The notes under the pieces are model-generated. The model saw only the letters and a program-made list of their open reading frames with translations, was not told the origin of the DNA and did not search any database. Of a DNA stretch of 42,048 bases, positions 11,348 through 35,091 are shown in pieces (position 1 is the first letter of the stretch; each line of letters begins with the position of its first letter). The stretch spans positions 1 to 42,048 of the forward strand of contig JAFXZK010000090.1 of the NCBI GenBank assembly GCA_017541265.1, in the 5' to 3' direction. A program made the translations under genes and the position numbers. This stretch comes from Bacteroidaceae bacterium (GTDB lineage Bacteria; Bacteroidota; Bacteroidia; Bacteroidales; Bacteroidaceae).

Positions 11348-11457
11348 AAGTACGCGGACTTGTGCCAATAAGTACGCGGACTTATGCCAATAAGTACACG
11401 TTCTTATGGAGATAAGTACACGGACTTATGACGATAAGTACACGGACTTATTTCGGC
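11348..11457. repeat. 22-base-period palindrome array 1 (5 units)
   Basis: Five units begin at 11348, 11370, 11392, 11414 and 11436, exactly 22 bases apart. Each is a 14-base core plus an 8-base linker. Cores are AAGTACGCGGACTT (twice), AAGTACACGTTCTT and AAGTACACGGACTT (twice). Linkers are GTGCCAAT, ATGCCAAT, ATGGAGAT, ATGACGAT and ATTTCGGC. Cores are near-palindromic and, with flanking AT, give 5-6 bp stems (ATAAGT/ACTTAT). The array fills the gap between cvpA and sufB and ends 14 bases before the sufB ATG. No clear TAnnTTTG promoter is present. The same cores occur in the array at 35004. Confidence 0.92.
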
Positions 11458-11471
11458 TTCGTGAATAGCCT

Positions 11472-12926
11472 ATGAGTGAAAGGAACAGCTTCGTGCGTGA
11501 GGTGGCGGAGAAGAAGTACGAGTACGGCTTCACCACCGACGTGCAGACGGACATCATCGAGAAGGGACTTTCGGAGGACGTCGTTCGCCTCATCTCCCAG
11601 AAGAAGGGAGAACCCGACTGGCTCCTGGAGTTCCGCCTGAACGCCTACCGCTACTGGCTCACGCTCGAACAGCCCACTTGGGGACACCTGAAGATGCCGC
11701 CCATCGACTACCAAGCCATCAGCTACTATGCGGCTCCGGCCCAAAAGCCAGCCACTGTGGTCGGCGCTTCTTCCGCCGACCTCGACCCCGAACTCATCAA
11801 GACCTTCGACAAGCTGGGCATACCCTTGGAGGAGCGCATGGCACTGGCAGGCACAGCCGTCGATGCCGTGATGGACTCGGTGAGCGTCAAGACGACGTTC
11901 CGCGAGAAGCTCCGCGAGAAGGGCATCATCTTCTGCTCCATCAGCGAGGCAGTGCGCGAACATCCTGACTTGGTGCGCGAGTACCTCGGCAGCGTCGTTC
12001 CCTACAGGGACAACTTCTTTGCCGCCCTCAACTCCGCAGTCTTCAGCGACGGCTCCTTCGTCTATATCCCCAAAGGTGTGCGCTGCCCGATGGAACTCAG
12101 TACCTACTTCCGCATCAATGCACGCGGCACGGGTCAGTTCGAGCGGACACTCATCGTGTGCGACGACGACGCCTACGTCAGCTACCTCGAGGGCTGCACC
12201 GCCCCCGTGCGCGACGAGAATCAGCTTCACGCCGCCATCGTGGAGATTGTGGTGAAGGAACGGGCTGAAGTGAAGTACAGCACGGTGCAGAACTGGTACC
12301 CAGGCGACAGCGAGGGCAAGGGCGGCGTGCTCAACCTCGTCACCAAGCGCGGTCACTTGCGCGGCAGGGACAGCCGTCTCTCATGGACACAGGTAGAGAC
12401 AGGCAGCGCCATCACTTGGAAGTATCCGAGCTGTGTGCTCTCAGGCGACGGCTCTCAAGCAGAGTTCTACAGCGTCGCCGTCACCAACAACTATCAGCAG
12501 GCCGACACGGGCACGAAGATGATACACATCGGCAAGAACACCCGCAGCACCATCATCAGCAAGGGCATCAGCGCAGGCAAGAGCCAAAACGCCTATCGGG
12601 GATTGGTCAAGGTGGCATCCACAGCCGACAACGCACGCAACTACAGCAGCTGCGACTCGCTCTTGCTCGGCAGCCAATGCGGAGCGCACACCTTCCCCTA
12701 CATGGATGTACACAACGACACGGCGGTAGTGGAACATGAGGCAACGACAAGCAAAATAAGCGAAGACCAGCTCTTCTATTGCAACCAGCGCGGCATCAAC
12801 ACGGAGGAAGCCGTCTCGCTCATCGTCAACGGCTACGCAAAGGAAGTCATCAACAAGCTCCCGATGGAGTTCGCTGTCGAGGCGCAGAAGCTCCTCGGCG
12901 TCAGCCTCGAGGGCAGCGTGGGGTGA
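11472..12926 (+). CDS. sufB: Fe-S cluster assembly scaffold protein SufB
   Basis: A 484-residue cytoplasmic protein of the SufBCD complex, which builds iron-sulfur clusters from SufS-derived sulfur. The SufB/SufD beta-helix region spans about 190-450, with [14 protein letters not shown] near 215, YLEGCTAP near 238 and the conserved C-terminal block [14 protein letters not shown] near 430. The ATG at 11472 gives a normal SufB start, [11 protein letters not shown]. sufC begins 16 bases after the stop. The gene follows cvpA after the 22-base array and may be read from the rimP operon or from a weak promoter I cannot identify. Confidence 0.96.
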
Positions 12927-12942
12927 TTGAAAATTGAAAGTT

Positions 12943-13707
12943 GTGTTAGAAGTTAAGAACTTACATGCCAGCATCAATGGCAAAGAAATACTGAAAGGCA
13001 TCAACCTGACCGTCAAGGACGGCGAGGTTCATGCCGTCATGGGACTCAACGGCGCAGGCAAGAGTACGCTCTCCAACGTCATCGTGGGTCACCCTGCCTA
13101 CGAGGTGACGGAGGGCAGCATCACCTTCAACGGGAAAGACTTACTACAGCTCAAGCCCGAGGAACGCGCCCACGAAGGCATCTTCCTGAGCTTCCAGCAG
13201 CCAGTCGAGATACCGGGCGTGTCGATGGTCAACTTCATGCGTGCCGCCCTCAATGCCAAGCGCAAGTACCAAGGGCTTGACCCGATTCCAGCGGGCGACT
13301 TCCTCAAACTCATGCGCGAGAAGCGGAGCATCGTTGAGCTGGACAGCAAGCTCACGAGCCGCAGCGTGAACGAAGGCTTCTCGGGCGGCGAAAAGAAGCG
13401 CAACGAGATATTCCAGATGGCAATGCTCGAACCGTTGCTGACCATCCTCGACGAAACAGACAGCGGCCTCGATGTGGATGCCCTGCGCGTCGTGGCAGAA
13501 GGCTTCAACAAGCTGCGTCGCCCCGAATCGAGTGCCATCGTCATCACCCACTACCAGCGCCTGCTCGACTACTTGAAGCCAGACGTTGTGCATGTCCTCA
13601 TCGACGGTCGCATCGTCAAGACCGGCGGCCCGGAGCTTGCCGTCGAAATAGAGAACCGAGGCTTTGACTGGATAATTAGAAGTGAGAGGGATGAGGTTAG
13701 AGGTTAG
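12943..13707 (+). CDS. sufC: Fe-S cluster assembly ATPase SufC
   Basis: A 254-residue ABC-type ATPase that drives the SufBCD scaffold. The Walker A sequence GLNGAGKST is at about 34-42, the signature SGGEKKRNEI near 149, and Walker B ILDETDSGLD near 170. I chose GTG at 12943 because it gives MLEVKNLHA, the usual N-terminus of SufC. A TTG three codons upstream (12934) would add residues not normally present. The downstream gap to sufD contains several GGATT-type palindromes. Confidence 0.93.
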   Translation: MLEVKNLHASINGKEILKGINLTVKDGEVHAVMGLNGAGKSTLSNVIVGHPAYEVTEGSITFNGKDLLQLKPEERAHEGIFLSFQQPVEIPGVSMVNFMRAALNAKRKYQGLDPIPAGDFLKLMREKRSIVELDSKLTSRSVNEGFSGGEKKRNEIFQMAMLEPLLTILDETDSGLDVDALRVVAEGFNKLRRPESSAIVITHYQRLLDYLKPDVVHVLIDGRIVKTGGPELAVEIENRGFDWIIRSERDEVRG

Positions 13708-13718
13708 AAGTTACCGTT

Positions 13719-13895
13719 CGGGCGGATTTGCAATCCGCCCGCAGAGAATATAGGGATTTATAATCCCGCAACATATAATATAATACGCATTACAAATGCT
13801 TATATTCAACTCTGTCGGATTGCAAATCCGACAGAACGAGAAAGCATTATAGCGTCATTACGAAAGGGGCGTTATCCCGTAATTACGTTATAACG
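13719..13895. repeat. Cluster of GGATT-N3-AATCC and other palindromes between sufC and sufD
   Basis: Three palindromes share a GGATT-N3-AATCC centre. They have 10-base arms at 13719-13741 (CGGGCGGATT, loop TGC), 6-base arms at 13753-13767 (GGGATT, loop TAT), and 10-base arms at 13812-13834 (CTGTCGGATT, loop GCA). Near sufD lie two perfect 10-base palindromes, CGTAATTACG (13878-13887) and CGTTATAACG (13886-13895), and an imperfect relative, CGTCATTACG, at 13854. No promoter consensus is seen. They resemble REP-like intergenic palindromes. Confidence 0.85.
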
Positions 13896-13906
13896 AAAAA
13901 GAAACT

Positions 13907-15124
13907 ATGAGTGCCGAAAAGCAATACACCGACTTCTACGCAGAGGTGCGCGAAACCATCGCCGCCCGCAGTTGCGACGAGATGAATGCCTGCCGCGAGA
14001 AAGCCTTGCAGACATTCGCCGCGCAGGGCTTCCCTTCGCCAAAGATGGAGCGCTACCGCTATGCGAAGGTCGAGGCAGACTTCTCGCCGAACTACGGCAT
14101 TGCCCTCGCGCCACTTGCAGGACCTCTCCCACCCTATTGCTTCCGTATCGCCGATGCCGACCCTCGCGTGCGCGTATTATATAATAATGTAGCGGATGCA
14201 GCCGACAGCATCGTTGCCTTGAACACTTTGCTCTCTGTCGATACGCTCGTCGTGCATGTGCCGCGAGGCATTAAGGTGGAGCATCCCATACAAATCAGCA
14301 ACATCCTGAAGGGCGAGCACGACACGATGGTGAGCCGCCGTATCCTCATCGTGATGGACGAGTTGGCAGAGGCTGACGTCATCATCACCGACCGCGCAGC
14401 AAGCCAGAGCCGCTTCCTGACGAACCAAGTCATCGAGGTCGTGATGGGCGACGGCTCGCACCTCAGCCTTTATGAGATAGAGGAAACACATCTGCTCTGC
14501 ACCCGCTATGGCAGCGTCTTCGTGCAGCAGGGCAGGAACAGTAGTTTGCACCATACCAGCCTGACGCTCTTCAACGGCCACACCCGGGGTCGCCTCGACG
14601 TGCAGCTGCAAGGCGAAGGGAGCGAGGTGACAGCCAACGGCTGCGTCATTGCCGACAAGATGCAGCGCGTGGACAACAACACGCTCATCGACCATCAAGT
14701 GCCTCACTGCCAAAGCAGCGAGCTGTATAAGTACGTCCTCGACGACAGCGCAGTCGGTGCCTTTGCCGGAAAGGTGTTGGTACGCGAAGGAGCGCAGAAG
14801 ACGATAAGCAAAGAGACGAACGCCAACCTCTGCGCCACACGCTCCGCCCGCATGTACTCGCAGCCGATGCTCGAAATCTATGCCGACGACGTGCAGTGCA
14901 GCCACGGCAGCACCGTAGGGCAGATGGACGAGGCAGCCCTCTTCTACATGCGGCAGCGCGGCATCGACGAGCCGGAAGCCCGTCTGCTGCTCAAGGCCGC
15001 GTTCATCACCGAAGTCATTGAAACCATTCCTCTCCTGTCGCTCCGCGACCGACTGCATGTGCTGGTCGATAAGCGTCTGAGGGGAGAACTAAGCAAATGT
15101 GAAGGATGCAAACTATGCAAATGA
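13907..15124 (+). CDS. sufD: Fe-S cluster assembly protein SufD
   Basis: A 405-residue partner of SufB and SufC in the Fe-S scaffold complex. The N-terminal helical part (1-100) is followed by the SufB/SufD beta-helix core (about 130-370), with VPHCQSSELYKYVLDDSAVGAFAGKV near 265 (shown only in part by the family motif QSSELYK) and the ending FYMRQRGI near 350. The last residues, CEGCKLCK, form a CxxCxxC-like tail. Its TGA stop overlaps the ATG of the next gene (ATGA at 15121-15124). This indicates translational coupling to a membrane acyltransferase that is not normally part of suf. Confidence 0.95.
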   Translation: MSAEKQYTDFYAEVRETIAARSCDEMNACREKALQTFAAQGFPSPKMERYRYAKVEADFSPNYGIALAPLAGPLPPYCFRIADADPRVRVLYNNVADAADSIVALNTLLSVDTLVVHVPRGIKVEHPIQISNILKGEHDTMVSRRILIVMDELAEADVIITDRAASQSRFLTNQVIEVVMGDGSHLSLYEIEETHLLCTRYGSVFVQQGRNSSLHHTSLTLFNGHTRGRLDVQLQGEGSEVTANGCVIADKMQRVDNNTLIDHQVPHCQSSELYKYVLDDSAVGAFAGKVLVREGAQKTISKETNANLCATRSARMYSQPMLEIYADDVQCSHGSTVGQMDEAALFYMRQRGIDEPEARLLLKAAFITEVIETIPLLSLRDRLHVLVDKRLRGELSKCEGCKLCK

Positions 15125-16125
15125 AAAACTATGAGATTTCTCTAACAGAGTCGATGGCAATGAAAGGCATTGCCATAATCGCCATGCTGGTGCACCATCT
15201 GTTCTACGACACCATGGAATATGGGGCATTGGTGAACCATATCGCATGGTTAGGCAAGGCCTGTGTCGCGATATTCCTGTTTCTGTCGGGTTATGGACTT
15301 ACCTACCAGTATATGCGAGCCGAAGACAACAAAACCGTTCGCGGCACCATGAAATTCCTTTGCCGGCGATTCACCAAGTTCTACCTTAACTACTGGATTG
15401 TCTTCCTGATTGCTGTTCCTCTGGGCGTGTTTGTCTTCGGACGCACACTGGACGTGCCATACGGGACGGACAACAACCACCTGCTGATGCTGCTGACGGA
15501 CTTCCTGGGACTGAACTTATATGAATCGTACAACATTACCTGGTGGTTCAACCGCGTGATTATCATTTTCTACCTGCTGTTCCCCCTGCTGTTCAAGTTC
15601 ACGTCATACAAGCCGCTTGCTTTGCTGGGCCTTCCCTTTGCATACCTGGAGTGTACCTTCTGTCCCTTCTATTTCGGCATTGTTGCCTCGAGGTATCGGG
15701 AAGACGTGAACCGCTTTCTGAACCGGCTGCCAGCATGGAGCATCATCCTGACGTCCGCTGTGATGATTGTCGTTCTGTGCTTTGTGCGCCAGCTCTCCCC
15801 CATACCCTATCTGCAAGGCACCAACATAGATGCGCTGACAACGGTTTTCCTGTCACTGCTGATTGTCAGCTGGGCAAACGTCCGCCACACGGAATATCGG
15901 GTGCTGACCTTTCTGGGAAAGCATTCCAGGGAAATGTATCTCTGTCACACGTTCATCTACCTGTACTTCTTCAGTGACTTCATTTACCAATTCAAATACC
16001 CTGTGCTTATAGTGCTGGCGCTGATCATCTGTTCGCTGGCAGTGTCTATTGCAATCGAACAGCTGAAGAAGTGCATCTCTTTCTATAAGTTCCAAGACTA
16101 CCTGCTCCGCAAGATTACGCAATGA
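15121..16125 (+). CDS. Membrane acyltransferase (acyltransferase 3 / OafA-like) inside the suf operon
   Basis: A 334-residue integral membrane protein with about ten hydrophobic segments. MKGIAIIAMLVHHLFYD near the N-terminus carries the paired His seen in acyltransferase-3 proteins, followed by FLSGYGLTYQY and an Arg-rich loop (FLCRRFTKFYLNYW). The family transfers acetyl or other acyl groups to cell-surface polysaccharides or lipids. The ATG at 15121 overlaps the sufD stop and is preferred over the in-frame ATGs at 15106 and 15115. Its own TGA (16123-16125) overlaps the sufS ATG at 16122. It also appears poorer in G/C at third positions than its neighbours, suggesting later insertion. The acyl substrate is unknown. 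Confidence 0.8.
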   Translation: MKNYEISLTESMAMKGIAIIAMLVHHLFYDTMEYGALVNHIAWLGKACVAIFLFLSGYGLTYQYMRAEDNKTVRGTMKFLCRRFTKFYLNYWIVFLIAVPLGVFVFGRTLDVPYGTDNNHLLMLLTDFLGLNLYESYNITWWFNRVIIIFYLLFPLLFKFTSYKPLALLGLPFAYLECTFCPFYFGIVASRYREDVNRFLNRLPAWSIILTSAVMIVVLCFVRQLSPIPYLQGTNIDALTTVFLSLLIVSWANVRHTEYRVLTFLGKHSREMYLCHTFIYLYFFSDFIYQFKYPVLIVLALIICSLAVSIAIEQLKKCISFYKFQDYLLRKITQ

Positions 16126-17372
16126 ACGACACAGACAAGATAAGACAAGACTTTCCCATCCTCCAGAAGGTCATATACGGGAAGTACCCGCTGGTGTATC
16201 TCGACAATGCGGCGACGACGCAAAAGCCGCGACAGGTCGTGGAGGCCATGACGGAGGAGTACTACAACGTCAACGCCAACGTGCATCGCGGCGTGCATTT
16301 CCTCTCGCAGAAGGCCACAGAGCTTCACGAGGCGTCGCGCGAGACGGTGCGCCGCTTCCTGAACGCCCGCAGCACGAGTGAGATTGTCTTCACTCGCGGC
16401 ACCACCGAGAGCATCAACCTCGTGGCATCGTGCTTCGGGCAAGCCTTTATGAAGGAGGGCGACGAGGTCATCCTCTCCGAGATGGAACACCACAGCAACA
16501 TCGTCTCGTGGCAGCTTCTGCAGGCAAGGCAGGGCATCCGCCTGCGCATCGTCCCCATCACCGACGACGGACGGCTCCGCATGGACGAGTACGAGAAGCT
16601 CTTCAACGAGCGCACACGCATCGTCAGCATCACCCACATCAGTAATGTGCTGGGCACGGTCAACCCCATCGAAGACATCATCCGCATCGCCCACGAGCAC
16701 GGCGTGCCCGTCCTCATCGACGGTGCACAGAGCACACCCCACACGCACATTGACGTGCAGAAACTCGACTGCGACTTCTTCGCTTTCAGCGGCCACAAGA
16801 TATACGGGCCAACGGGCATCGGTGTGCTTTACGGCAAAGAGCAATGGCTGGACCGCATCCCGCCCTATATGGGCGGCGGCGAAATGATAAAGACCGTCAG
16901 CTTCGAGCGTACCACCTTCAACGAGCTTCCCTACAAGTTCGAGGCAGGCACGCCCGACTACGTTGCCTCCACTGGCCTCGCCCGCGCCCTCGACTACGTC
17001 AGTTCCGTAGGCTTCGATTGTATCGAAGCTCACGAGCGCGACCTCACCGCCTACGCCCTCCAGCGCATGAGCGAGATAGAGGGCATGAACATCTTCGGCC
17101 CCAAAGACATCAAGGAGCACGCCGCGGTAATTAGCTTCCTAGTCTCCCTCCCTTTAAGGGAGGGCCGGGGTGGGTCTATCCACCACCTCGACATGGGCAC
17201 CCTGCTCGACCGCCTCGGCATCGCCATCCGCACAGGCCATCATTGCGCCGAACCCCTCATGCGTCGCCTCGGCATCGAGGGCACCTGCCGCGCCAGCTTT
17301 GCCCTCTACAACACACACCAGGACATTGATGCCCTTGTTGCAGGCATCAAGCGTGTCAGTCAGATGTTTTAA
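16122..17372 (+). CDS. sufS: Cysteine desulfurase SufS with a repeat-derived insertion
   Basis: A 416-residue PLP enzyme that takes sulfur from cysteine for SufBCD. The PLP lysine is Lys226 in SGHKIYGP, and the active-site cysteine is Cys375 in RTGHHCAEP. The remaining sequence is canonical (YLDNAATTQKP at the start). Residues about 342-352 (SLPLREGRGGS) replace the one or two residues usually found between the FLV strand and the IHHLDMG segment. They are encoded by a palindromic element (17145-17177), keep the frame, and lie on the strand before the active-site loop. The gene is coupled to the acyltransferase by an ATGA overlap and is followed by the third 22-base array. Confidence 0.95.
   Translation: MNDTDKIRQDFPILQKVIYGKYPLVYLDNAATTQKPRQVVEAMTEEYYNVNANVHRGVHFLSQKATELHEASRETVRRFLNARSTSEIVFTRGTTESINLVASCFGQAFMKEGDEVILSEMEHHSNIVSWQLLQARQGIRLRIVPITDDGRLRMDEYEKLFNERTRIVSITHISNVLGTVNPIEDIIRIAHEHGVPVLIDGAQSTPHTHIDVQKLDCDFFAFSGHKIYGPTGIGVLYGKEQWLDRIPPYMGGGEMIKTVSFERTTFNELPYKFEAGTPDYVASTGLARALDYVSSVGFDCIEAHERDLTAYALQRMSEIEGMNIFGPKDIKEHAAVISFLVSLPLREGRGGSIHHLDMGTLLDRLGIAIRTGHHCAEPLMRRLGIEGTCRASFALYNTHQDIDALVAGIKRVSQMF
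17145..17177. repeat. Palindromic GC-rich element inserted in frame in sufS
   Basis: CCCTCCCTTTAAGGGAGGG is nearly a perfect palindrome and is followed by CCGGGGTGGGTCT. Its form is that of dispersed intergenic elements of Bacteroidetes genomes, and a related TTCCCCTTAAGGGGA occurs at 22808-22822. Here it is translated as part of SufS. Confidence 0.8.
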
Positions 17373-17383
17373 GGATAAAGGAA

Positions 17384-17465
17384 AATTAGGCGTGCCTAAT
17401 TTGCGAATTAGGCACGCCTAGTTGGTAATTTAGGTTAACCTAGTTGGCAAATTAGGTTAACCTGT
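17384..17465. repeat. 22-base-period palindrome array 3 (4 units, different core)
   Basis: TTAGG of each unit starts at 17386, 17408, 17430 and 17452, exactly 22 bases apart. The 14-base cores are TTAGGCGTGCCTAA, TTAGGCACGCCTAG, TTAGGTTAACCTAG and TTAGGTTAACCTGT, each a palindrome or nearly so. The 8-base linkers are TTTGCGAA, TTGGTAAT and TTGGCAAA. It lies between the convergent sufS and AraC-type genes. The last unit is followed by a T run and could end transcription from the plus side. Confidence 0.92.
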
Positions 17466-17472
17466 TTTTCTG

Positions 17473-18552
17473 TTAAGCCTTGCCGCGCTGCTGTTCGAGC
17501 CAAGCCAGGGGCGTCATTCCCGTGAACTTGCGGAAATTACGATAGAAGGACTGCTCACCCGAGAAGCCCACGTTTTGGGCGATGGACGAGAACTTGCTTT
17601 CGCCTCCGTGCCTGTCGTGTTGCATCATCATCATCTTTGCGTGCTCTATGCGAAGACGGTTCACATAGTCGGAAAACGAACAGCGCAACTCCTGGTTGAT
17701 GTAGTTCGAGACGTAGGTACGGCAGGAACCCACCTCACGCGCCACGTCTGTAAGCGTCACATTTTGGCGCAGATAGTAGGCTTCCGTTACCATCAGATGC
17801 TCTATCTTCGCGCCGAGTTCCTTGTTTTCCGCCGGTGCATCGGGTGGTGTCTCCTCGGGATTGTCGGTCAGGAACTGCTCGACGCGGAATGAACGCTTGC
17901 TCCCGATGTAGCCCAGGACAAAGAGCAGGACTGCCATCGGGACGAGGGCAAAGGGGATCATACCGTGGTTCGTGATGACATATTTCCTGCCGAGAATGTT
18001 AAGGACGAAGGAGACGATAGCGGTCAGCAGCACCGCCACGAGCAGAATGCGGATGGGCAGCACGCTCTTGTCCTCTGTCTCGGCATAGAGCTCGGACAGC
18101 TTGCGGTCGAAGGCACGCAGGCGGCGGTAGCCGAAGATGACTACGCTCAACACCTGCAAGGCGTTAAGTACCTGACGCACAGAATCGGTCGTCTCGTTGT
18201 TCCAGCAGAGGATGGCAAGCGCCACCAAGAGGCCTGGGGCCAGCACCTGCACCGTCAGTCGCGGTGATGCGGGTTGGGCGGTCAGCCGGCAAATGTAGAG
18301 AAAGTAGATGGGATAGACGGAGAGGGAGCAGGCAGCCCATAAGCTTTCGAGCGGCGTAGGCAGTCCCGTCTCTGCATAAAGATGGAATAATAAGGCGTGA
18401 CAAAGATAAAGCACAGAGCAGACGGCAAAGAAGACGGTCAACACCTTCTTGGCTGCGTCGGCACGACGGTGCTCTGCTGCGAACCGCACGAACCAATATA
18501 AGCAGACCAGCAGCGGCAAAACAGCTAAAACAAACTCACCTTTGAACTCCAT
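17473..18552 (-). CDS. Membrane-embedded AraC-family transcriptional regulator
   Basis: A 359-residue protein with about seven membrane helices in the first 215 residues, a linker, and a C-terminal AraC/XylS helix-turn-helix domain (about 250-355). The two HTH parts are visible as LTDVAREVGSCRTYVSNYIN and FSSIAQNVGFSGEQSFYRNF, followed by TGMTPLAW. Such proteins probably sense a signal in or across the membrane and bind DNA at the inner face. The gene is divergent from the BspA-like surface protein at 18790, a plausible target. The start is the ATG at 18552, 33 bases after a TATCTTTG box. The ligand is unknown. Confidence 0.85.
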   Translation of the reverse strand: MEFKGEFVLAVLPLLVCLYWFVRFAAEHRRADAAKKVLTVFFAVCSVLYLCHALLFHLYAETGLPTPLESLWAACSLSVYPIYFLYICRLTAQPASPRLTVQVLAPGLLVALAILCWNNETTDSVRQVLNALQVLSVVIFGYRRLRAFDRKLSELYAETEDKSVLPIRILLVAVLLTAIVSFVLNILGRKYVITNHGMIPFALVPMAVLLFVLGYIGSKRSFRVEQFLTDNPEETPPDAPAENKELGAKIEHLMVTEAYYLRQNVTLTDVAREVGSCRTYVSNYINQELRCSFSDYVNRLRIEHAKMMMMQHDRHGGESKFSSIAQNVGFSGEQSFYRNFRKFTGMTPLAWLEQQRGKA

Positions 18553-18584
18553 CTCTTTACACCCAAAATGGCAATTTATTCATG

Positions 18585-18592
18585 CAAAGATA
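18585..18592 (-). promoter_or_regulatory. -7 promoter box for the AraC-type regulator
   Basis: On the minus strand this reads TATCTTTG, matching TAnnTTTG, 33 bases upstream of the ATG at 18552. No clear -33 TTTG is present. Confidence 0.6.
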
Positions 18593-18654
18593 CTATTTTT
18601 AATGGTTCCGACGCTCTTCTCGGCACAAGAAAAATGCCGATGAAATGGGGATTT

Positions 18655-18741
18655 GTACGTTTTGCGTGTCTTTTTGTACGAAATGATAGTACGAAACTAC
18701 CCTTTCCTACGCGCGCACATCATTTATATTTCGTACCTTTA
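18655..18741 (+). promoter_or_regulatory. Promoter region of the BspA-like gene with repeated GTACG sites
   Basis: TACCTTTA (18734-18741) is a one-mismatch -7 box 49 bases before the ATG at 18790. Upstream, GTACGAAA occurs twice in direct orientation (18676-18683 and 18689-18696), GTACGT occurs at 18655, and the inverse TTTCGTAC (18729-18736) overlaps the -7 box. These could be binding sites for the divergent AraC-type regulator. The inverse copy may be chance, because TTCGTACCTTTG-like -7 boxes are common in this window. Confidence 0.45.
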
Positions 18742-18789
18742 CGCCCGAATTGACGTATAAACTATTAACCAAATTCAAATATCTTTATT

Positions 18790-25311: not shown

Positions 25312-25354
25312 CAAAGGTACGAAAAATAGTTCATAGTTCATAGTTCATAATTCA
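25312..25354 (-). promoter_or_regulatory. pnp promoter abutting a TAGTTCA repeat
   Basis: On the minus strand TACCTTTG (25319-25312) matches the -7 consensus, 57 bases upstream of the pnp ATG. From 25327 to 25354 the plus strand carries TAGTTCA three times and a TAATTCA variant, the complement of the AACTATG family. The repeat occupies the -33 region. Confidence 0.65.
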
Positions 25355-25464
25355 TAATTTTTCGTTTTGTTGCGGTTTTGAGACATAAAGGACGGTTTTG
25401 GAAGGTTCGTTCCTCAAGAGAAAGAGCAACTTACCCTGTAAAGCAAGGGCTTAAGGTTAAGCAA

Positions 25465-27448: not shown

Positions 27449-27450
27449 GC

Positions 27451-27981
27451 TTAAGGTATAATCCTTTCGCACCGCGATTCGCCGGTGTTGATGTCTGTGC
27501 CGTAGATGTCCACGTACTCGCACCTGATGCACATGGGCGGCTTCATCTGGGCATACATTCTCTCAAGAATCATCTCGTGGTCGTGCAGCTTGACAATGCC
27601 CACCCATTTGCCTTTGCGCTTGCAGATGCGTATGCTCAAATCTTTGTAAGCAGTCAAATGAACGAGTGCCTCATCCTCTTTCGCATTGATGACCTTCACG
27701 CCGAACGCCATCTTGCGGTCCAGGAAGGTCAGCTCCTCTATCTTGTAGTCAAACCCTTTTACCCTGAAGCCTCCGCCCACGACCCAGTACACCTTAAGCG
27801 GTGCCTTTTTACATAGAGAGCCACCCTGAAGGTTGATGTCGTAGCAGACCATGTTGCGGTTCGTGTTGCGCTCAAACACAAAAACATGATCCTTGAACGG
27901 CGCATCTATTTCTGCCCAAGTGGCAAGGCAGGAAAAAGTGCACAGCAACGCACAGAGTATAAAACGTCTCATCGGCAGCAT
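27451..27981 (-). CDS. DUF4833 domain secreted protein
   Basis: A 176-residue protein with signal peptide (about 4-23, ending TWA-EI) and a single DUF4833-like domain: FVFERNTNRNMVCYDINL, then KVYWVVGGG and ELTFLDRKMAFGV. The function of the family is not established. Its ATG (27981, or 27972 for MRRFIL) lies 12-21 bases after the stop of the DUF5686 gene, so the two are probably co-transcribed as the end of the minus-strand lipid-type operon. I infer an envelope role from the signal peptide and neighbours only. Confidence 0.75.
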   Translation of the reverse strand: MLPMRRFILCALLCTFSCLATWAEIDAPFKDHVFVFERNTNRNMVCYDINLQGGSLCKKAPLKVYWVVGGGFRVKGFDYKIEELTFLDRKMAFGVKVINAKEDEALVHLTAYKDLSIRICKRKGKWVGIVKLHDHEMILERMYAQMKPPMCIRCEYVDIYGTDINTGESRCERIIP

Positions 27982-27993
27982 GTTTTTCTGGTT

Positions 27994-30531
27994 TTAGAAG
28001 GAGAAGGTTAGATTGAAGCGGATGCCGTTTCTCTTGGTTCCGCCATGGATATAGTTGAGACGGCGCACATAGTCGACGCCGAAGAGCTTGAAGATGTTGC
28101 GGATGCCGCAGGCAAACTCCATATAGGGCGTGTGGGAATCCATAATATAGGATCCCTCTGGCAACATGTAGAGCATTCCGTCTGTCGGGTTTAGGTAAGG
28201 ATTGTTCTTGTTGGTAAGCATACCCCAACAGCCCTTGAAGGCAACATACTCGCGCAACTTGAGCTTCTTGAAGAGTGGAATGCGGTTGAATATCTTGCCG
28301 TTCATGTTCCACTCCACCGACCAATAGACACGACGGTCCATGAATAGCTCCATATTGTGGAGCATGTTGAAAGTGCCTTCCTGCTCGACGTAAGAGATGC
28401 ACAGAGGCGGTGTGAGGAGGAACAGGAAAGGAACCTTGTTCCATTGTGCCGATGCCGTAAGGCGGAAATCCATACGACCCCAACTGCCCAGCCACTGACG
28501 CTTGTAGATGACGATGTCGGACTGGTTCGTATTGTACTGTCCGCCAAGGAAGCCCTTGAAACCGATTGTGTGACGGATGATAAAGTCCGGACGGTCTTTG
28601 TTGAGAGGCCAGCGGTCCTGCTTAGTGATGATATAAGTCTGCCCAGGACAGAAGCGAAGCGAAGTGCTCCATTCGGTTGTGCGCAACTTTCTATCCTCTA
28701 ATCCTGTATTGACATGTATGAAATGCAAGTCGCCAGCCACTTCGTTGCTCTCCACCTTGAATGCGGTGTTGAAGTTCAGGCCGTAGTCGGTCTCCCAAGT
28801 GAAGGAGAGACGCTGCATATTGGTCTTGTAGAGCATATTCACCTTCTCGGTCTTGAAACTGACGAAGAGGTTGTCCTTGCTGTTCTGGAGGAACTTGTCG
28901 GCAGCAGACGTGACATCGTATGTGCTCTCGAAAGTAATCTTCCTCATCGGGAACTCGTAGGGAGAATACTTCTTCTTGTTGAAGCAGTAGTCCGCCACAA
29001 TCCCATAGTAGTTGCCGTTCGACTTGAAGCCGTGCGTATAGTATCCGTCCAGGAACACATGCTTGTTGAAGGCGCCGGTGGTCTTGCCGCCGATACGCGC
29101 ACGGAAGCCGTCGTTGAAGTTGGAGGAGAACATGCTGGTGACAGGACCGATGTCGAACTTGCTGGGCTTACCAGGCTTGGAGGTCTCAATATAGTTCTCG
29201 AAGAGTGTCTTGACAATAAACAGAGGGATGCGCATTGCCTTAGACTTTGACATCGCCGTCATGAAGTCACCCAGTCCGTCTTCCTTTTCGGAGAGTTGGA
29301 CAGCACGGTACTGGTTCCAGAACTCCTCGTCCTGGTTGCGCGAGTCGGCCATGTGTATGACTTTTGCCTTGTTGCGGAAGAGGTTCTTCTGAAGCGGCTC
29401 GAAGTCATAGTCGGAAAGGCGCGTGTTGCGCACCACAAGCAACCGCTTTGCCAGAAGCGTCATCTCCGCCCACATGTCGTCGGTGGTCAGCACCCATTCC
29501 TCGTTGGGCAGTTTGGTATAGACCTGGTCGACATGCAGTGAGCTGACGAAGTTGACGTCGCTCTTAGGCGGAATGCTAAGGTGGCACTTCTTGACGTGCA
29601 GCGTCGAGTCCTTCAGAATGTAGATGTCACCGTTGAAACCGATGTCCTGCGGGTTGTTGGGGGTGAACTGCAGATGGAAGCAGGAGTCGCGCTCTACAAG
29701 CACGGTATCGACGATGTAGTATCTGTAGAAAGCCGTCGCGCCCGTCCCGATGGGGCTAAGGAAGGGGAGCTTGAGCAGCCTGACGTAGTTGTCGTAGATG
29801 TCCACGTCCTGGAAGACTTCTTTGAGCGTCGTGTTGACAATGTCGCCGGTAGCGATGAGCTGGTTCAGTCCGGAACTCTGCTCACCCGTTATGATGTCCT
29901 TCTCCGACCTCGGCTCTTTGCGGTAAACATGCTTCGTGACGGTCTCGTCGAGAGAGATGGGCACCACCATCTTGCCGTTATACGGGCTTTTCTCTGCCTG
30001 CATCGTCCACTTCACCTTGCCTTTGGCAATATCAAGGCTGTCCACATCCTTGACCTTGTAGTCGTTCAGTGCCATGGACAACTTCTGGTATTTCGTGTAT
30101 TGAAAGAAGTCATGGTTTTCGAGCTTGGTTCCCTTCTTGGCCTCAATCACACGCTTCATGAGTTCCACGGCAGGGTTGTCCTTGCGGACATAGCGTTTCC
30201 TCTCCGCCTTGACGACAACCTCGCCCAACTGCTTCGTGTCGGGCTTGAGCTTGATGGTAAGGCGGCTGGGCGTGGCCTTGGTGATGTTCACCTTCTCCTC
30301 CTTGTAGCCCATGCAGGAGAAGGAAAGCGTAGCGCCGTTGATACGCGTGATGGTGAACTTGCCATCCAAATCCGCTATTGTTGAAACCTTGCGCTCCTTG
30401 TAAGTCACGCCAGCCAAAGAAAGGCTGTCGCCGGTGGATGCATCAAGGATGACACCGGTGATTTTCTGTCCCAAAGCATTCACAGCGAATGCCAAAAGCA
30501 AAGCAATGGTTGCAAAGAGTTTTCTTCTCAT
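27994..30531 (-). CDS. DUF5686 / carboxypeptidase-regulatory-like outer-membrane protein
   Basis: An 845-residue outer-membrane protein. Signal peptide 1-21 (VNALG-QK) is followed by a carboxypeptidase regulatory-like domain (about 22-95: ITGVILDASTGDSLSLAGVT, then GKFTITRI and SFSCMGYKEE). A DUF5686 region comes next, and a beta-barrel-like C-terminus rich in alternating aromatic residues ends in the strand RNGIRFNLTFSF, typical of outer-membrane proteins. There is no TonB-dependent plug domain. The role of the family is unknown; the domain order suggests surface transport or binding. It lies 83 bases after the FAD oxidoreductase gene, with a TTTTCACC-like repeat in the gap. Confidence 0.85.
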   Translation of the reverse strand: MRRKLFATIALLLAFAVNALGQKITGVILDASTGDSLSLAGVTYKERKVSTIADLDGKFTITRINGATLSFSCMGYKEEKVNITKATPSRLTIKLKPDTKQLGEVVVKAERKRYVRKDNPAVELMKRVIEAKKGTKLENHDFFQYTKYQKLSMALNDYKVKDVDSLDIAKGKVKWTMQAEKSPYNGKMVVPISLDETVTKHVYRKEPRSEKDIITGEQSSGLNQLIATGDIVNTTLKEVFQDVDIYDNYVRLLKLPFLSPIGTGATAFYRYYIVDTVLVERDSCFHLQFTPNNPQDIGFNGDIYILKDSTLHVKKCHLSIPPKSDVNFVSSLHVDQVYTKLPNEEWVLTTDDMWAEMTLLAKRLLVVRNTRLSDYDFEPLQKNLFRNKAKVIHMADSRNQDEEFWNQYRAVQLSEKEDGLGDFMTAMSKSKAMRIPLFIVKTLFENYIETSKPGKPSKFDIGPVTSMFSSNFNDGFRARIGGKTTGAFNKHVFLDGYYTHGFKSNGNYYGIVADYCFNKKKYSPYEFPMRKITFESTYDVTSAADKFLQNSKDNLFVSFKTEKVNMLYKTNMQRLSFTWETDYGLNFNTAFKVESNEVAGDLHFIHVNTGLEDRKLRTTEWSTSLRFCPGQTYIITKQDRWPLNKDRPDFIIRHTIGFKGFLGGQYNTNQSDIVIYKRQWLGSWGRMDFRLTASAQWNKVPFLFLLTPPLCISYVEQEGTFNMLHNMELFMDRRVYWSVEWNMNGKIFNRIPLFKKLKLREYVAFKGCWGMLTNKNNPYLNPTDGMLYMLPEGSYIMDSHTPYMEFACGIRNIFKLFGVDYVRRLNYIHGGTKRNGIRFNLTFSF

Positions 30532-30613
30532 ATTCTTCAGATGTCAAAGTATTAAAGCGTTGGCCTTTTAATCCTTTAACTCTTCAACTTTTCATTTTTT
30601 AATTTTTCACCTT

Positions 30614-32008
30614 TTATGGTGTTATCCTGCTGCACGTCTCGAAAGCTGTCATGGTGACACCCTCGATGCCGGGCAGGATGATGCTCTGCCCCGTGAGCAG
30701 CAGGTTCGGCAGCGGCGTGCCTACAGAATGGAAGCTGAGCATCGGTGTGCGGCAGTCCTTGCGCATTCCGAAGGCTCCTCCCTCGGGGCTTCCCAGATAG
30801 TCGCGGTAGGTGAGCGGTGTGCTGGTATAGCACTGTTCCACCATGCCACGCAGTCCGGGGATGTATTGTTCTGCCAGTGCGATGCACTGTTCTGTCTTTT
30901 GTCGGCAGAGTGCCTTGTAGCCGTCGCCACGGCGACCGACCTTTGTGTCTGCCCATGCTTTGCACTCTTCCCACGGCATGGGTGTGAGGAGGTCTATCTG
31001 TCGGAGCGTGTCTGTCTCGTCCTCCGGAGTCCTTGCGCTAATCATGACACCTTTCACAGGGTTGTTCTCCTCGGCCATCGTCCAGACGTTCGGCTCGTCA
31101 TAGACGAAGACGTTGTAGGCGAAGTAGCGCAATGCGCCGGGTTTGATGGCAAGTTGCACCGTGAACATGCCGTTGGTGTTCTCTGCCGCTTCCATCCGTC
31201 TGCGGAAAGCCTTGCGTACCGAAGGACATTCTTCCAGCATTTGGCAGAGCACGGCGGGATGGATATCGGAGATGAACCACTCCGCCTCGTAGCTTTGCCC
31301 GTCGGCACAGGCGGCGCTTGTAATGCGACCGTCTGTTTCTGTCAGACGAACCACCTTGCTGTCTGTCCGCACTTCGCCGCCTGCCTCTTGGATTGTACTG
31401 ATGAGCTTGTTCACCAGCAGGTTGCCATCCCCCTTGAGCCGCCAACTGCTCTCAATGTAGCTGGCGCAGGTGTGGGCGAAGTTGAAGAGCGGAAGTGACT
31501 CGCGCCGGAGTTCCGTCTTCATGGCAGCAGCGCTGACCACATTCAGCAGCAGCTCGTCGGAGAATGTCTGGCGCAGGTAGTCGTAGGCACTGACTTCCAT
31601 GTCGGCAGCCGTGATGTGCTGCAAACGCCAGACGTAGCTTTGGAGTGCCTCGCGCTGATGCGGGAAGTCCTTTGCCAGTCCCTCTGCGAATGCCTCATAG
31701 CCCTGATGGAAGGTGAAGTGCCGACCGCCGATGATGATGTGGTCGAACTCCTCGTCCATTCTCTCCCACGGGAGGTCGAGCAGTCCGAGCTGTGCGAATG
31801 CTTTGTGCACCGCCTGCCCAGGAGCCAGCCCTCCCACATAGTGCAGTCCTGTATCGTAGCGCAGTCCGCCTCTGCGGAAACTTTGCATGCAGCCGCCCGG
31901 TTGATTGGACCTTTCAAGCACAAGCACTTTAAGCCCTCGCTTGGCGAGTAGTGCTCCGCACTCGAGTCCACCCAGTCCGCTGCCGATAATCAGGACATCA
32001 TAGTTCAT
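30614..32008 (-). CDS. FAD-dependent phytoene desaturase/retinol saturase-like oxidoreductase
   Basis: A 464-residue flavoprotein related to all-trans-retinol 13,14-reductase and CrtI-type desaturases. The N-terminal Rossmann motif is YDVLIIGSGLGG, followed by LVLERSNQPGGCMQSF. Near the C-terminus GTPLPNLLLTGQS and the glycine-rich IEGVTMTAF match the family. It probably adds or removes double bonds on a hydrophobic chain. I chose ATG 32008 (MNYDVLI); the ORF opens 7 codons earlier at 32029 (MNYELWT), but both ATGs are made by AACTATG repeats. Neighbouring acyl carrier protein and ketoacyl synthase genes suggest a polyene or lipid substrate. Confidence 0.8.
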   Translation of the reverse strand: MNYDVLIIGSGLGGLECGALLAKRGLKVLVLERSNQPGGCMQSFRRGGLRYDTGLHYVGGLAPGQAVHKAFAQLGLLDLPWERMDEEFDHIIIGGRHFTFHQGYEAFAEGLAKDFPHQREALQSYVWRLQHITAADMEVSAYDYLRQTFSDELLLNVVSAAAMKTELRRESLPLFNFAHTCASYIESSWRLKGDGNLLVNKLISTIQEAGGEVRTDSKVVRLTETDGRITSAACADGQSYEAEWFISDIHPAVLCQMLEECPSVRKAFRRRMEAAENTNGMFTVQLAIKPGALRYFAYNVFVYDEPNVWTMAEENNPVKGVMISARTPEDETDTLRQIDLLTPMPWEECKAWADTKVGRRGDGYKALCRQKTEQCIALAEQYIPGLRGMVEQCYTSTPLTYRDYLGSPEGGAFGMRKDCRTPMLSFHSVGTPLPNLLLTGQSIILPGIEGVTMTAFETCSRITP

Positions 32009-32092
32009 AGTCCATAGTTCATAGTTCATAGTCCATAGTTGTGGGACGTTAGGGCGTAGCCTAACTATGAACTATGGACTATGAACTCTTAA
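32000..32092. repeat. AACTATG-family repeat with inverted halves
   Basis: TAGTTCATAG / TAGTCCATAG units (32000-32040) and their complements AACTATGAACTATGG (32061-32088) flank a unique stretch of about 20 bases, so the transcript can form a long hairpin. The repeat fills the gap between the acyl carrier protein stop and the oxidoreductase and supplies the oxidoreductase start codon. Confidence 0.85.
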
Positions 32093-32335
32093 CTACTTCT
32101 GGTGCTGCTCGATGTAGTCGTAGAGCTGGGCGAATGTCTTGATGGTGGGAAGCTCTGCCTTCGAGATGAGCACGCCATACTTTGTCTGTACGATGCCGAT
32201 GAGGTCCACTAGGCTCAGGCTGTCAAGCTCAAGCGTCTGGTAGATGGGTGCATCGGGAGTGATAGCCGCTTCGTCGATTTCAAACTCTTCTGCCAGTTCG
32301 GCGTTAATCTCAGCAATGATTTCTTCTCTTGTCAT
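32093..32335 (-). CDS. Acyl carrier protein
   Basis: An 80-residue acidic four-helix carrier protein. The phosphopantetheine site is Ser39 in ELDSLSLVD. It is not the housekeeping AcpP, since the DSLSLVDL motif and the flanking genes differ from the fab cluster. It is expected to carry acyl chains for the adjacent ketoacyl synthase. The stop is embedded just before a long AACTATG repeat. ATG 32335 is the only reasonable start. Confidence 0.9.
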   Translation of the reverse strand: MTREEIIAEINAELAEEFEIDEAAITPDAPIYQTLELDSLSLVDLIGIVQTKYGVLISKAELPTIKTFAQLYDYIEQHQK

Positions 32336-32393
32336 ATTTTCTTGTTTTGATTGGTGAATGTTGCGTTACTATACATTATATATTAATATATTA

Positions 32394-33611
32394 TTAGATA
32401 TTCTTCACGATAATGGTGGAGTTGGTGCCGCCGAAGCCGAAGCTGTTGGAGAGGAACATGTCGAAGCCTGTCTCCTTTGTTTCGGGCAGGACGTTGATGC
32501 AGGCCGTCTCTTCGTCGGGCTTTTCGAAATTGATGTTGCCGGCGATGAAGCCGTTCTTCATCATCAGTGTCGAGTAGATGATTTCGCTGGCTCCTGCCAT
32601 CCACATCTCGTGACCTGTCTGGCTCTTTGTAGAGGTGACGGGCACTGTGCGTTCGCCGAAGAGCTGCGCTATGGCCTGTGCTTCGCGGCGGTCGCCGATG
32701 ACGGTGCTGGTGGCGTGGGCGTTGATGTAGCCAATCTGCTTGGGGTTGATGCCGCCGTTACGGAGGCAGAGTTCGAGGGAACGTGCCGGGCCTGCCACGT
32801 TGGGTGTAGAGATGTGGTCGCCGTTGCCGGAGAAGCCCCAGCTTACTATCTCTGCGATGATGTTGGCTCCGCGCTTGACGGCGTGCTCGTAGCTCTCCAG
32901 GATGACGGTTGCGCCGCCGCCGCTGGGCACGAGTCCGTCGCGGCTGGCGTCGAAGGGGCGGCTTGCCTTTTCGGGTTCGTCTTCACGGATGGAGAAGGCC
33001 TGGATGCCGTCGAAGGAAGCGATGCCGTACATGTTGTTCTCCTCTGCGCCGCCGCAGACCACGCACTCCTGCAAGCCCTGCTGAATGAGCAATGCGCCGA
33101 GTCCGATGCTTTGCGAACCGGATGCGCAGGCTGCCGAAGCCGTGAGGTTGATGCCACGCAGCTTGAAGAGACAAGCGAGGTTCATCGTGATGTTGGAGTT
33201 CATGCTCTGGAAGATGGCGCCGCTGCCGCAGGCCACTGTGCTGTTTGCCTGGCGGAACTTGTCGAGGCTCTGCATCGTTGCCTCTGCCACGGAGTCGTTG
33301 CCGTAGATGATGCCCACTTCGTGTGTATTGAGATAGTCTTCGTCGATGCCGGCGTGGTCGAGTGCCTGCTTGGTGGCGATGTAGCCGTACATGGCCTCTT
33401 CGGGCATGAAGTTACGGAGGTTGCGGGGAACGTAGGGCTTGAGATCCACTTTGGGCACATTGCCGACGAGCGCTGAGCGGAAGCCGGCGTCCTTGCGTTC
33501 CTGGCTGAAGATAATGCCACTTTTGCCCTGATAGAGTGCGTCGCGCACTTCGTCGAGACTTGTACCGATGCAGGACCAGATGCCCATGCCTGTTATCACT
33601 ACTCTGTTCAT
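32394..33611 (-). CDS. Beta-ketoacyl-ACP synthase (KAS I/II family)
   Basis: A 405-residue thiolase-fold condensing enzyme. The catalytic Cys162 lies in SAACASGS, His299 in NAHATST and His334 in KSQTGHEMWMAG, giving the normal Cys-His-His set. FGFGGTNSTIIV closes the fold. It elongates acyl-ACP by decarboxylative condensation with malonyl-ACP. The partner is probably the acyl carrier protein encoded 58 bases downstream. The AACASGS and GHEMWMAG variants differ from housekeeping FabF (TACSSG/TACATG and GHLLGAAG), suggesting a dedicated secondary pathway. Confidence 0.88.
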   Translation of the reverse strand: MNRVVITGMGIWSCIGTSLDEVRDALYQGKSGIIFSQERKDAGFRSALVGNVPKVDLKPYVPRNLRNFMPEEAMYGYIATKQALDHAGIDEDYLNTHEVGIIYGNDSVAEATMQSLDKFRQANSTVACGSGAIFQSMNSNITMNLACLFKLRGINLTASAACASGSQSIGLGALLIQQGLQECVVCGGAEENNMYGIASFDGIQAFSIREDEPEKASRPFDASRDGLVPSGGGATVILESYEHAVKRGANIIAEIVSWGFSGNGDHISTPNVAGPARSLELCLRNGGINPKQIGYINAHATSTVIGDRREAQAIAQLFGERTVPVTSTKSQTGHEMWMAGASEIIYSTLMMKNGFIAGNINFEKPDEETACINVLPETKETGFDMFLSNSFGFGGTNSTIIVKNI

Positions 33612-33666
33612 TTATTTCACTATTTTACTATTCAAGATTATACAATTCATTTGTCCTATTGTCCAG

Positions 33667-34803
33667 TTACTTAATTGCCTTGCTGAAGCACCTGCGGCGC
33701 TTGCAGACGGTGTGATTGAACACTTTCCATTGTGTGAGTACCTTCATGTTGTCCTCGAGCATAGGCCCTGTCTCTGCATAGCGGAACCCCTTCTCGTTGA
33801 AGAGGGGGATGAGGTCGGCAAAGAGCAGGGCGTTGATGCCCAGTGCCTGCCATTCGGGATGGACGGCGATGAGCAGCAGCTCGACTTCCTCCTCGTGCTT
33901 GAACTTGAGGGCGCGGAGCATGTGAAACCACCCGAAGGGAAACAGCCGTCCGCCTGACTTCTGCAGTGCCCTTGAGAGGTTGGGCATGGTGATGCTGCAA
34001 GCGATAAGGTTGCCTTCGCTGTCCTCCACCATCGGCAACATCTTGAGGTCAAGCATCGGGACGTATTCGGCAACGAAGGCGTCTGCCTCTTCATCGGTGT
34101 GCGGTGTGTAGCCGAAGAGCTGACTGTAGGCTTCGTTGAGCAGACGGAATATCTTGCGTCCGTAGCCGCCATTGAAGACTTCATCGTGCGTCAGCTTCTT
34201 CACCTTCAATCCATACATGTCCTTCACCAGCCCGTCCACGCGGGCAAAGCGCTCCGGCACTTCGGCAGGGACCTCCACCTTGACCTGCACCCAGTCCACC
34301 TCCTTGCCATAGCCGTGCCGCATCATGTGCTCGGGATAGTAGGGAGGGTTATAGATGGTAATCTGGGAGCCCATTTTGTCGAAGTCCTCGACGAGCATTC
34401 CCTCCTTGTCGAAGTCGGAGATGCCGAGCGGTCCCTGTATGGAGCCCATACCCTTCTGGCGCCCCCATTCCTCGACGGCCTTCAGCAGGGCGCGGGAGAC
34501 GTCATCGTCATCGACAAACTCTATCCAGCCGAAGCGCACGCAGCTGCCCTTCCATATCTGGTTGGCCTTATGGTTGATGATGCCGACGACGCGACCGACC
34601 GGCTCCCCCTCCTCGCTGTAGGCGACAAAGGGGACCACGTCGCAGTGCGCCAATCCCGGATTATGCTTAGGATTGAACCATTTGCGCACGTCTGACTCCC
34701 AGTCCGGCACATAGTTCGGATTGCCCCGGTATATCTTTCGGGGAAGCGCCAGGAAGTCGTTCATCTGACGCTTGGTTCGGACTGTCTCTACGGTGCACTT
34801 CAT
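33667..34803 (-). CDS. GNAT-fold N-acyltransferase-like protein (YghO-type family)
   Basis: A 378-residue cytoplasmic protein with a duplicated or extended GNAT fold. The N-terminal motif IYRGNPNYVPDWESDVRKWF is followed by NPGLAHCDVVPFVAY. QGPLGISDFDKEGMLVEDFD, then YNPPYYPEHM, and the acetyl-CoA-type loop VHPEWQALGINALLFADL are typical of the YghO-like acyltransferase family. Some GNAT-type enzymes of this kind N-acylate lipid head groups, but the substrate here is unproven. I chose ATG 34803 (MKCTVE): the longer frame (34890) begins upstream of the -7 box at 34862, while 34842 is also possible. It is the first gene of the minus-strand lipid-type operon. Confidence 0.72.
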   Translation of the reverse strand: MKCTVETVRTKRQMNDFLALPRKIYRGNPNYVPDWESDVRKWFNPKHNPGLAHCDVVPFVAYSEEGEPVGRVVGIINHKANQIWKGSCVRFGWIEFVDDDDVSRALLKAVEEWGRQKGMGSIQGPLGISDFDKEGMLVEDFDKMGSQITIYNPPYYPEHMMRHGYGKEVDWVQVKVEVPAEVPERFARVDGLVKDMYGLKVKKLTHDEVFNGGYGRKIFRLLNEAYSQLFGYTPHTDEEADAFVAEYVPMLDLKMLPMVEDSEGNLIACSITMPNLSRALQKSGGRLFPFGWFHMLRALKFKHEEEVELLLIAVHPEWQALGINALLFADLIPLFNEKGFRYAETGPMLEDNMKVLTQWKVFNHTVCKRRRCFSKAIK

Positions 34804-34861
34804 GCCAATCTCACTTGCTTTTTCGCGTGTATGTGCGCGCATGGTGCGCACTATTCGGCTG

Positions 34862-34869
34862 CAAAGATA
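34862..34869 (-). promoter_or_regulatory. Promoter of the GNAT-led minus-strand operon
   Basis: On the minus strand TATCTTTG matches the -7 box. It lies 59 bases upstream of ATG 34803 and inside the longest possible GNAT frame, which argues against the 34890 start. No obvious -33 TTTG. Confidence 0.6.
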
Positions 34870-35003
34870 CAAAATTTTACCCGAAATCACATTAATAACG
34901 ACATGAATTTTGCTTAATTATTATCTTTTTGACGAATTGATAAGCCTTTTGGGTGAATGCGAAACGGCAAAAGGGACAAAAGTACGCTTTTCGCCATAAG
35001 AAT

Positions 35004-35091
35004 AAGTACACGTTCTTATGGCAATAAGTACACGTTCTTATGAGGATAAGTACACGGACTTTTGGCAATAAGAACACGGACTTTTGGAAGG
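35004..35091. repeat. 22-base-period palindrome array 2 (4 units)
   Basis: Units start at 35004, 35026, 35048 and 35070. The 14-base cores are AAGTACACGTTCTT (twice), AAGTACACGGACTT and AAGAACACGGACTT. The linkers are ATGGCAAT, ATGAGGAT, TTGGCAAT and TTGGAAGG. A degenerate preceding unit (AAGTACGC, 24 bases) begins at 34980. Cores are the same as in array 1, 23.6 kb away. The array lies between the DUF349 terminator and the GNAT promoter, that is, upstream of the GNAT operon. Confidence 0.92.

Follow-up and report, generated by a model that had tools for sequence, protein, structure and literature searches.

Rows of palindromes at 22-bp pitch in a Bacteroidaceae genome as candidate binding sites of HU-HIG proteins

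The window analysed here, a 42,048-nucleotide stretch of DNA from a Bacteroidaceae bacterium (GenBank assembly GCA_017541265.1, contig JAFXZK010000090.1, positions 1 to 42,048), contains arrays of short quasi-palindromes repeated at a pitch of 22 bp, and similar arrays are dispersed through the genome to which it belongs (G000, 3.24 Mb in 143 contigs; G numbers denote genomes and L numbers fetched stretches). We propose, with a probability of roughly 0.6, that the arrays are rows of sites for dimers of HU-HIG proteins, comprising the operator of the HU-HIG gene itself and many further chromosomal sites, partly spread by miniature inverted-repeat transposable elements (MITEs). The sequence-only reading of the window had offered three options for the arrays: a multi-dimer protein-binding platform, a series of RNA hairpins or a mobile repeat. 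The first is the best supported of the three, and a candidate protein family can now be named for it, whereas the binding is something that we infer. Proteins of this family (PF18291) are related to HU, and Burroughs et al. reportedly described in 2017 their expansion in Bacteroidetes and predicted a role against invading DNA. Pfam names the family for an HU domain fused to a winged helix-turn-helix (wHTH), Ig or glycine-rich motif.

Arrays upstream of HU-HIG genes

Stretches around strong HU-HIG matches in genomes of the genus were taken from the top of the match list, 40 in a first set and 20 in a second. The first set includes deliberate additions (eight stretches from G012 and G024, two from G013 and one from G000), and the second was assembled without these four genomes. 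Gaps of at least 80 bp were tested, a lag-22 array being called at a minimum of 28 of 44 positions; six of the 60 stretches had no usable upstream gap. Over both sets, arrays were present in 29 of the 54 gaps upstream of HU-HIG genes, one of the 40 downstream gaps and three of the 64 other gaps. The corresponding fractions were 22/37, 0/24 and 3/48 in the first set (p = 2e-10) and 7/17, 1/16 and 0/16 in the second (p = 0.0014). Lags of 17–21 and 23–27 were not enriched upstream of HU-HIG genes in the first set. When genes were counted instead of gaps, 20 of 39 HU-HIG genes had an array, as opposed to 11 of 97 other genes, seven of which are neighbours sharing the array of an HU-HIG gene. After the removal of the 11 deliberate stretches, 12 of 28 HU-HIG genes retained one. 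The association was also observed outside the genus, in two other families of the order: in G059 at 22 bp (2/6 versus 0/41) and in G047 at 23 bp (2/6 versus 0/21).

For some HU-HIG genes, the palindrome found upstream belongs to a family that is dispersed more widely in the same genome. This agreement was observed for two paralogs in G000, two in G012, one in G024 and one in G013. The dominant family of G000, called AAG here after its core, forms a four-unit array (cores at L121:2502-2581) at positions -259 to -180 relative to a gene for a 153-residue HU-HIG protein on contig C21 (L121:1861-2322, minus strand), and this array separates the HU-HIG start from the canonical HU gene. In G012, the syntenic ortholog (L262:10145-10606) shares the gene order HU, array, HU-HIG, and its array (cores at L262:10782-10861), at -255 to -176, is built from TTAACC palindromes, the dominant family of that genome; the two HU-HIG proteins are 58% identical. 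In RUG837, which also bears AAG arrays, HU, an array and an HU-HIG gene follow one another in this order, and the protein is 60% identical to that of L121. Among the other relatives of the L121 protein, G024 has a TTAACC array at about -255 to -176 and G005 a different repeat at about -263 to -197. A second HU-HIG gene of G000 (L324:1808-2482, on C99) is preceded by TTGCTTCATCATGATGAAGCAA units, a family with 70 pair matches genome-wide at up to one mismatch. The same family has 41 pair matches in G013, where arrays of it are located upstream of HU-HIG gene L325 and in the gap between cvpA and sufB. The second paralog of G012 (L259:15882-16343) has AACTTCTGCAGAGAACTT upstream, and of the 11 arrays in 438 kb of that genome that are not TTAACC, five have a core of this AACTTC type.

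PF18291 matches were found in all 61 genomes searched, in 59 of them above the family cut-off. The profile also matches in nine of 14 control genomes, including E. coli, and the canonical HU of G000 scores 26.1 bits; therefore, PF18291 counts can include canonical HU. In loci L021-L102, a single HU-HIG gene was found beside an array, at a distance of 1,034 bp. Possible promoter elements were noted near some arrays: in L320, a TTGACA and TATATA pair lies between the array and the HU-HIG start; in L321 the pair precedes the array, and L319 and L335 show weaker forms of it. The pairs in L320 and L321 are unlike the promoter type of Bacteroidetes.

A working of the arrays can be proposed. An array would usually provide four dimer sites, quasi-palindromes composed of two half-units of about 11 bp, one every 22 bp. 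Because 22 bp is approximately two turns of DNA, neighbouring units share almost the same face, with an offset of about 35 degrees for 10.5 bp per turn, and four protein dimers could align along approximately one side of the helix. The likeliest protein for the window arrays is probably the HU-HIG paralog of G000 with an HU fold encoded at L121:1861-2322. Binding of its dimers along the row may be cooperative and may bend or wrap the DNA. The array at the protein's own gene would act as an operator, and the approximately 100 other intergenic arrays may form local nucleoprotein knots that shape the chromosome, insulate or silence; the silencing or chromosome-shaping role is a guess. Each paralog would read a palindrome of its own, which would change with the protein between species while the pitch and the place are kept. 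The operator presumably appeared first and the chromosomal sites later, some of them perhaps spread by MITEs. Many short palindromes per chromosome, with one reader protein for each system, are also a property of MatP/matS, SlmA and Noc. However, the sites of those systems are single, are conserved among relatives and are read by proteins that are not HU-like, whereas here the palindromes stand in rows of four and are replaced.

Unit design and turnover of the array families

The sequence-only reading had suggested a genome scan for the 14-base core and 8-base linker at 22-base spacing, and had reckoned with the outcome that just two loci would be found. The two-core pattern AAGNNCNNGNNCTT-N8-AAGNNCNNGNNCTT occurs at 306 exact places in G000 and its reversed control at none, so the AAG arrays are neither limited to the window nor the product of chance. 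With three pairs per four-unit array, the count corresponds by estimate to about 100 arrays, most of which have four units. Sixty stretches were fetched around arrays of G000 and yielded, together with the window, 65 arrays of at least three units, of which 42 have four units and 18 have five. The unit follows the design AAGnnC-nn-GnnCTT with a linker of 8 bp, usually near ATGGCRAT. The linker measured 8 bases in all 74 matches when 5 to 9 were permitted, and 99 of 214 linkers contain GGC or GCC, where 15 would be expected after shuffling. Spacings of up to 110 bp between strict cores were multiples of 22 in 188 of 188 cases in the G000 stretches and 243 of 244 in other genomes, in stretches that had been picked for holding a pair or triple. 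The two halves of a core nearly always differ in G000, with eight homotypic units among 253 and 87 expected. Homotypic units are not avoided in RUG837 (117 of 194, 127.5 expected).

The arrays of G000 are intergenic: 64 of the 65 overlap no called gene by more than 15 bp, and the overlap with a stop codon is 2 bp at seven array ends. Stop codons are a median of 52.5 bp away and start codons 162 bp. A Pfam scan of 84 flanking genes of 60–650 residues located away from stretch ends gave no family in more than three genes among the first 25 of 118 families listed, which is unlike an ordinary regulon, and the regulon of a classical regulator was rejected as an explanation for this reason. The two PF18291 matches among the 84 are the HU and HU-HIG genes beside one array and do not constitute independent support.

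Other genomes carry the pitch with different letters. In G012, of the same genus, four 14-bp quasi-palindromes with 8-bp linkers at 22-bp pitch have the core AAxGGTTAACCxTT, which matches 128/165 times in G012, 141/123 in G024, 20/11 in G020, once in G005 and nowhere in G000. Exactly four units are present in 26 of 35 TTAACC arrays of G012, GGC or GCC occurs in 63 of 100 linkers, and the halves are mostly unlike (10 homotypic units of 110, 32 expected). Among arrays whose period is at least 10, period 22 accounts for 42 of 60 in 438 kb of G012, for 6 of 15 in 11 unselected stretches from genus relatives, and for 1 of 21 in 20 stretches that represent other families of the order. Once a further 20 order-level stretches were included, of which 12 had been chosen around HU-HIG genes, the fraction became 3 of 42, with 23 bp as the most frequent period (7 of 42). 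The 22-bp period stays prominent among non-microsatellite arrays once the AAG core is masked. A scan of named genomes gave at least 81 stretches with arrays, 80 of Bacteroidales type and one of Clostridia by title, several of them rumen-derived by title; these stretches carry other half-sites at the same 22-bp pitch (L103 was left out of the analysis). Composite arrays hold one 22-bp register across unrelated palindromes (L058:445-752 and L047:6144-6474).

Conservation of array position was assessed in the gap upstream of sufB, which holds an array in the window. Among 30 sufB loci fetched, a lag-22 array was found upstream in six (G000, G005, G013, G012, G024 and G016, the last in a gap of 1,072 bp); G035 has one unit, and seven gaps were too short for testing. 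The palindromes of the first five genomes belong to four unrelated families. An array was found in G012 in two of four gaps where G000 has one and in one of 13 where G000 has none, a small sample from a genome in which 22-bp arrays are common in gaps, and the comparison is given no weight here.

Several individual arrays deserve mention. A ten-unit 22-bp array at L110 4587-4839 has a unit made of an AAG-type half (ATAAGAAC) and a TAGGC-type half (GCCTAGTT), and resembles a hybrid of two array families. Two 23-bp arrays with ACAAGCTTGT-like palindromes at L178 8231-8298 and 9647-9736, in G054 from another family of the order, recall the 23-nt unit of the BrickBuilt element described below. An AAG-type 22-bp array at L091 6958-7037 is part of the metagenome-assembled genome titled Clostridia, by transfer or misbinning.

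Alternative explanations and known repeat systems

The nearest described relative of the arrays is BrickBuilt, a MITE of Porphyromonas gingivalis with 19 copies of 1 to 22.8 repeats of 23 nt and indels of up to 6% within the element (PMC4596501). Both are dispersed tandem repeats of a nearly two-turn unit in Bacteroidales, intergenic (strictly so for BrickBuilt). Some BrickBuilt copies are inside a MITE that has a leader and a tail and others are bare; MITE-like ends may accompany part of the arrays here. They differ in that G000 has about 100 arrays, mostly of four units, and in that the pitch is rigid, at 22 bp in the genus, although G047 and G054 have 23-bp arrays. The sequence-only reading had allowed for an already described repeat family with a known role; BrickBuilt is a described family of similar kind, but has no settled role. 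The shortest copy, BrickBuilt_14 (84 nt), lies between a minus-strand membrane-protein gene and PGN_0872 on the plus strand, which encodes a DNA-binding protein of the HU family (PF00216), and this position fits the HU-HIG proposal. The sections consulted name dyad symmetry in passing and draw no link to an HU protein. Among the papers listed for 22-bp repeats, BrickBuilt-like minisatellites, Bacteroidetes REPINs and HU-HIG in the open-licence literature, none was named as describing these arrays or the targets or operators of HU-HIG proteins; one of them, PMC11035120, names an HU-HIG protein only in a table.

The arrays may instead be selfish minisatellites carried by MITEs, BrickBuilt- or BOX-like and with no role for the host, their 22-bp pitch reflecting mere tandem duplication of whole units and their position after stop codons the place where insertions harm least. 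Many RUG837 arrays are located, as judged by eye, inside a MITE-like element with terminal inverted repeats TGATAATCCGC...GCGGATTATCA, and RUG837 has arrays in two gaps that are empty in G000. In G000, 13 of the 65 arrays agree with a common flank motif in at least 17 of 21 bases, and some flanks have ends of the RUG837 element type. Genes are avoided, and in tandem gaps the array is closer to the upstream stop in 33 of 42 cases. The mobile repeat of the sequence-only reading thus holds for part of the arrays, but many are bare, without leader or tail, including arrays 1 and 2 of the window. Linkers of the 42 four-unit arrays are as similar at the same position of other arrays (identity 0.695) as at different positions (0.689), so the arrays are mostly not block copies. 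The identical four-unit design on another core in G012 and the concentration upstream of HU-HIG genes also speak against a purely selfish origin, which we consider unlikely. Mobilisation as REP or REPIN elements by a RAYT (Y1) transposase is much less credible still. The arrays share with REP elements short, species-specific palindromes in hundreds of intergenic copies, and G000 has four Y1_Tnp matches, but no such match was found in G012 or G024 (86% and 72% complete), which have hundreds of array matches. A GTAG tag occurs in one and a CGTC tag in 25 of 214 linkers, hence not regularly, and according to the part of PMC3733652 available, REP dimers have variable spacing, unlike the fixed 22-bp pitch here. 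The Y1_Tnp scan and the tag count led us to reject this explanation.

A series of RNA or single-stranded DNA hairpins acting as terminators, processing sites or mRNA stabilisers is improbable. It could draw on the palindromes, on the proximity to stop codons, on some arrays that are A-rich at the left edge and T-rich at the right, on closing stems, which were predicted for 66 of 130 folded strands, and on folding far below mononucleotide shuffles (mean z of -6.4 in G000 and -5.0 in RUG837). However, at least 219 of 253 G000 units have non-wobble mismatches in the would-be stem in the three commonest pairings, which speaks against RNA stems, and arrays with randomised unit orientation fold at least as well as the real order (mean z of the real order +0.5 in G000 and +2.0 in RUG837). 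T-runs are about equally frequent where no gene reads in (20 of 60) and where one does (27 of 66), arrays show no preferred orientation relative to transcription (24 of 40 in G000 and 6 of 19 in RUG837), and array 1 of the window leaves just 22 bp ahead of sufB. Hairpins or terminators as the main role were therefore rejected on the folding z-scores, the unit-orientation control and the T-run test, and the hairpin option of the sequence-only reading fits poorly. CRISPR was also rejected, since it would need long unique spacers, whereas the linkers here are 8 bp long and often share GGC or GCC.

Several observations weigh against the proposal that the arrays are HU-HIG sites. At the threshold used, 25 of the 54 gaps upstream of HU-HIG genes have no 22-bp array, and lag 21 occurs upstream of HU-HIG genes in 3 of 17 gaps of the second set. 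Genomes that lack the AAG family also have PF18291 matches, and the number of matches does not track array abundance (5 in G000 and 19 in G017). The RUG837 array ends 675 bp from the HU-HIG start instead of about 180 bp. A search of 37 genus genomes found the sufB-gap palindrome of G005 at no other place. Not all 22-bp arrays are clearly palindromic, and dyad symmetry, raised for 22-bp arrays at group level, is slightly raised for control periods too; tests of single arrays, which have little power, were positive in 4 of 37. No solved relative of HU-HIG was found. With about 100 AAG arrays in G000, the position of one beside one of five HU-HIG genes could be due to chance, and the case therefore rests on the group test.

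An extension of the HU-HIG proposal, for and against which we see even odds, is that Bacteroidales carry an undescribed class of sequence-specific HU paralogs, each reading its own row of about four palindromes at 22- or 23-bp pitch, as the operator of its own gene first and then at up to about 100 chromosomal sites. Protein and sites would turn over together, and BrickBuilt would be the P. gingivalis member. If this is true, the palindromes of orthologous genes are unrelated between sister species and stand at nearly equal offsets, in the manner of an arms race or a self-spreading chromatin code, and bacteria would offer a case of fast joint evolution of a chromatin-type protein with hundreds of its sites, in which the register is kept and the letters are replaced. 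It would suggest why Bacteroidales have an entire class of unexplained intergenic minisatellites, and would provide candidate target sites for a large family of HU paralogs.

Arrays and genes of the window

Arrays 1 and 2 of the window, both listed on the plus strand, have five and four units with a period of exactly 22, as originally reported, and Tandem Repeats Finder gives 0% indels for both. Array 1 (11348..11449) comprises five 14-bp quasi-palindromic cores of the AAG family (units at 11348, 11370, 11392, 11414 and 11436). It fills the gap between a cvpA-like gene (10859..11341, plus strand; Colicin_V, PF02674), whose stop is 6 bp away, and sufB (11472..12926, plus strand), which starts 22 bp downstream. 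Array 2 (35004..35083) has four AAG-family cores (units at 35004, 35026, 35048 and 35070) and is located between two minus-strand genes, 161 bp from the called 5' end of a GNAT-like gene (33667..34842; weak match to Acetyltransf_1) downstream and 141 bp from the 3' end of a DUF349 gene (35225..37195) upstream. The placement of array 1 among plus-strand genes and of array 2 among minus-strand genes had been described correctly. A third array with 22-bp pitch (17383..17463, plus strand) had been overlooked; it belongs to another palindrome family (AATTAGGCRYGCCTAATT / AATTTAGGTTAACCTAGTT) and has convergent genes on both sides.

Arrays were also found on a contig classed as viral (L022), which encodes a major tail protein and a tail-fibre match: two intergenic four-unit 22-bp arrays at 2808-2887 and 11187-11266 (AAGGACGCGTCCTT). 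No HU-HIG relative was confirmed in viral contigs by a search that reaches close relatives only. Inverted pairs of 11-bp tandem repeats surround an array at L028 5133-5437 and lie beside arrays at L056 4786-4966 and L058 175-352, which suggests MITEs with repeat-built ends.

An Rfam scan of the window returned two tRNAs and nothing else. Two identical tRNA-Gln (CTG) genes lie at 38409-38574 in an exact 91-bp tandem duplication; the orthologous gap in G012 contains two such tRNA-like copies and a TTAACC array. Microsatellites of 7- and 8-bp units form a second repeat habit of G000 and are numerous and mostly intergenic, for example at window positions 1203-1253, 5227-5311, 25326-25356, 31998-32040 and 37294-37324.

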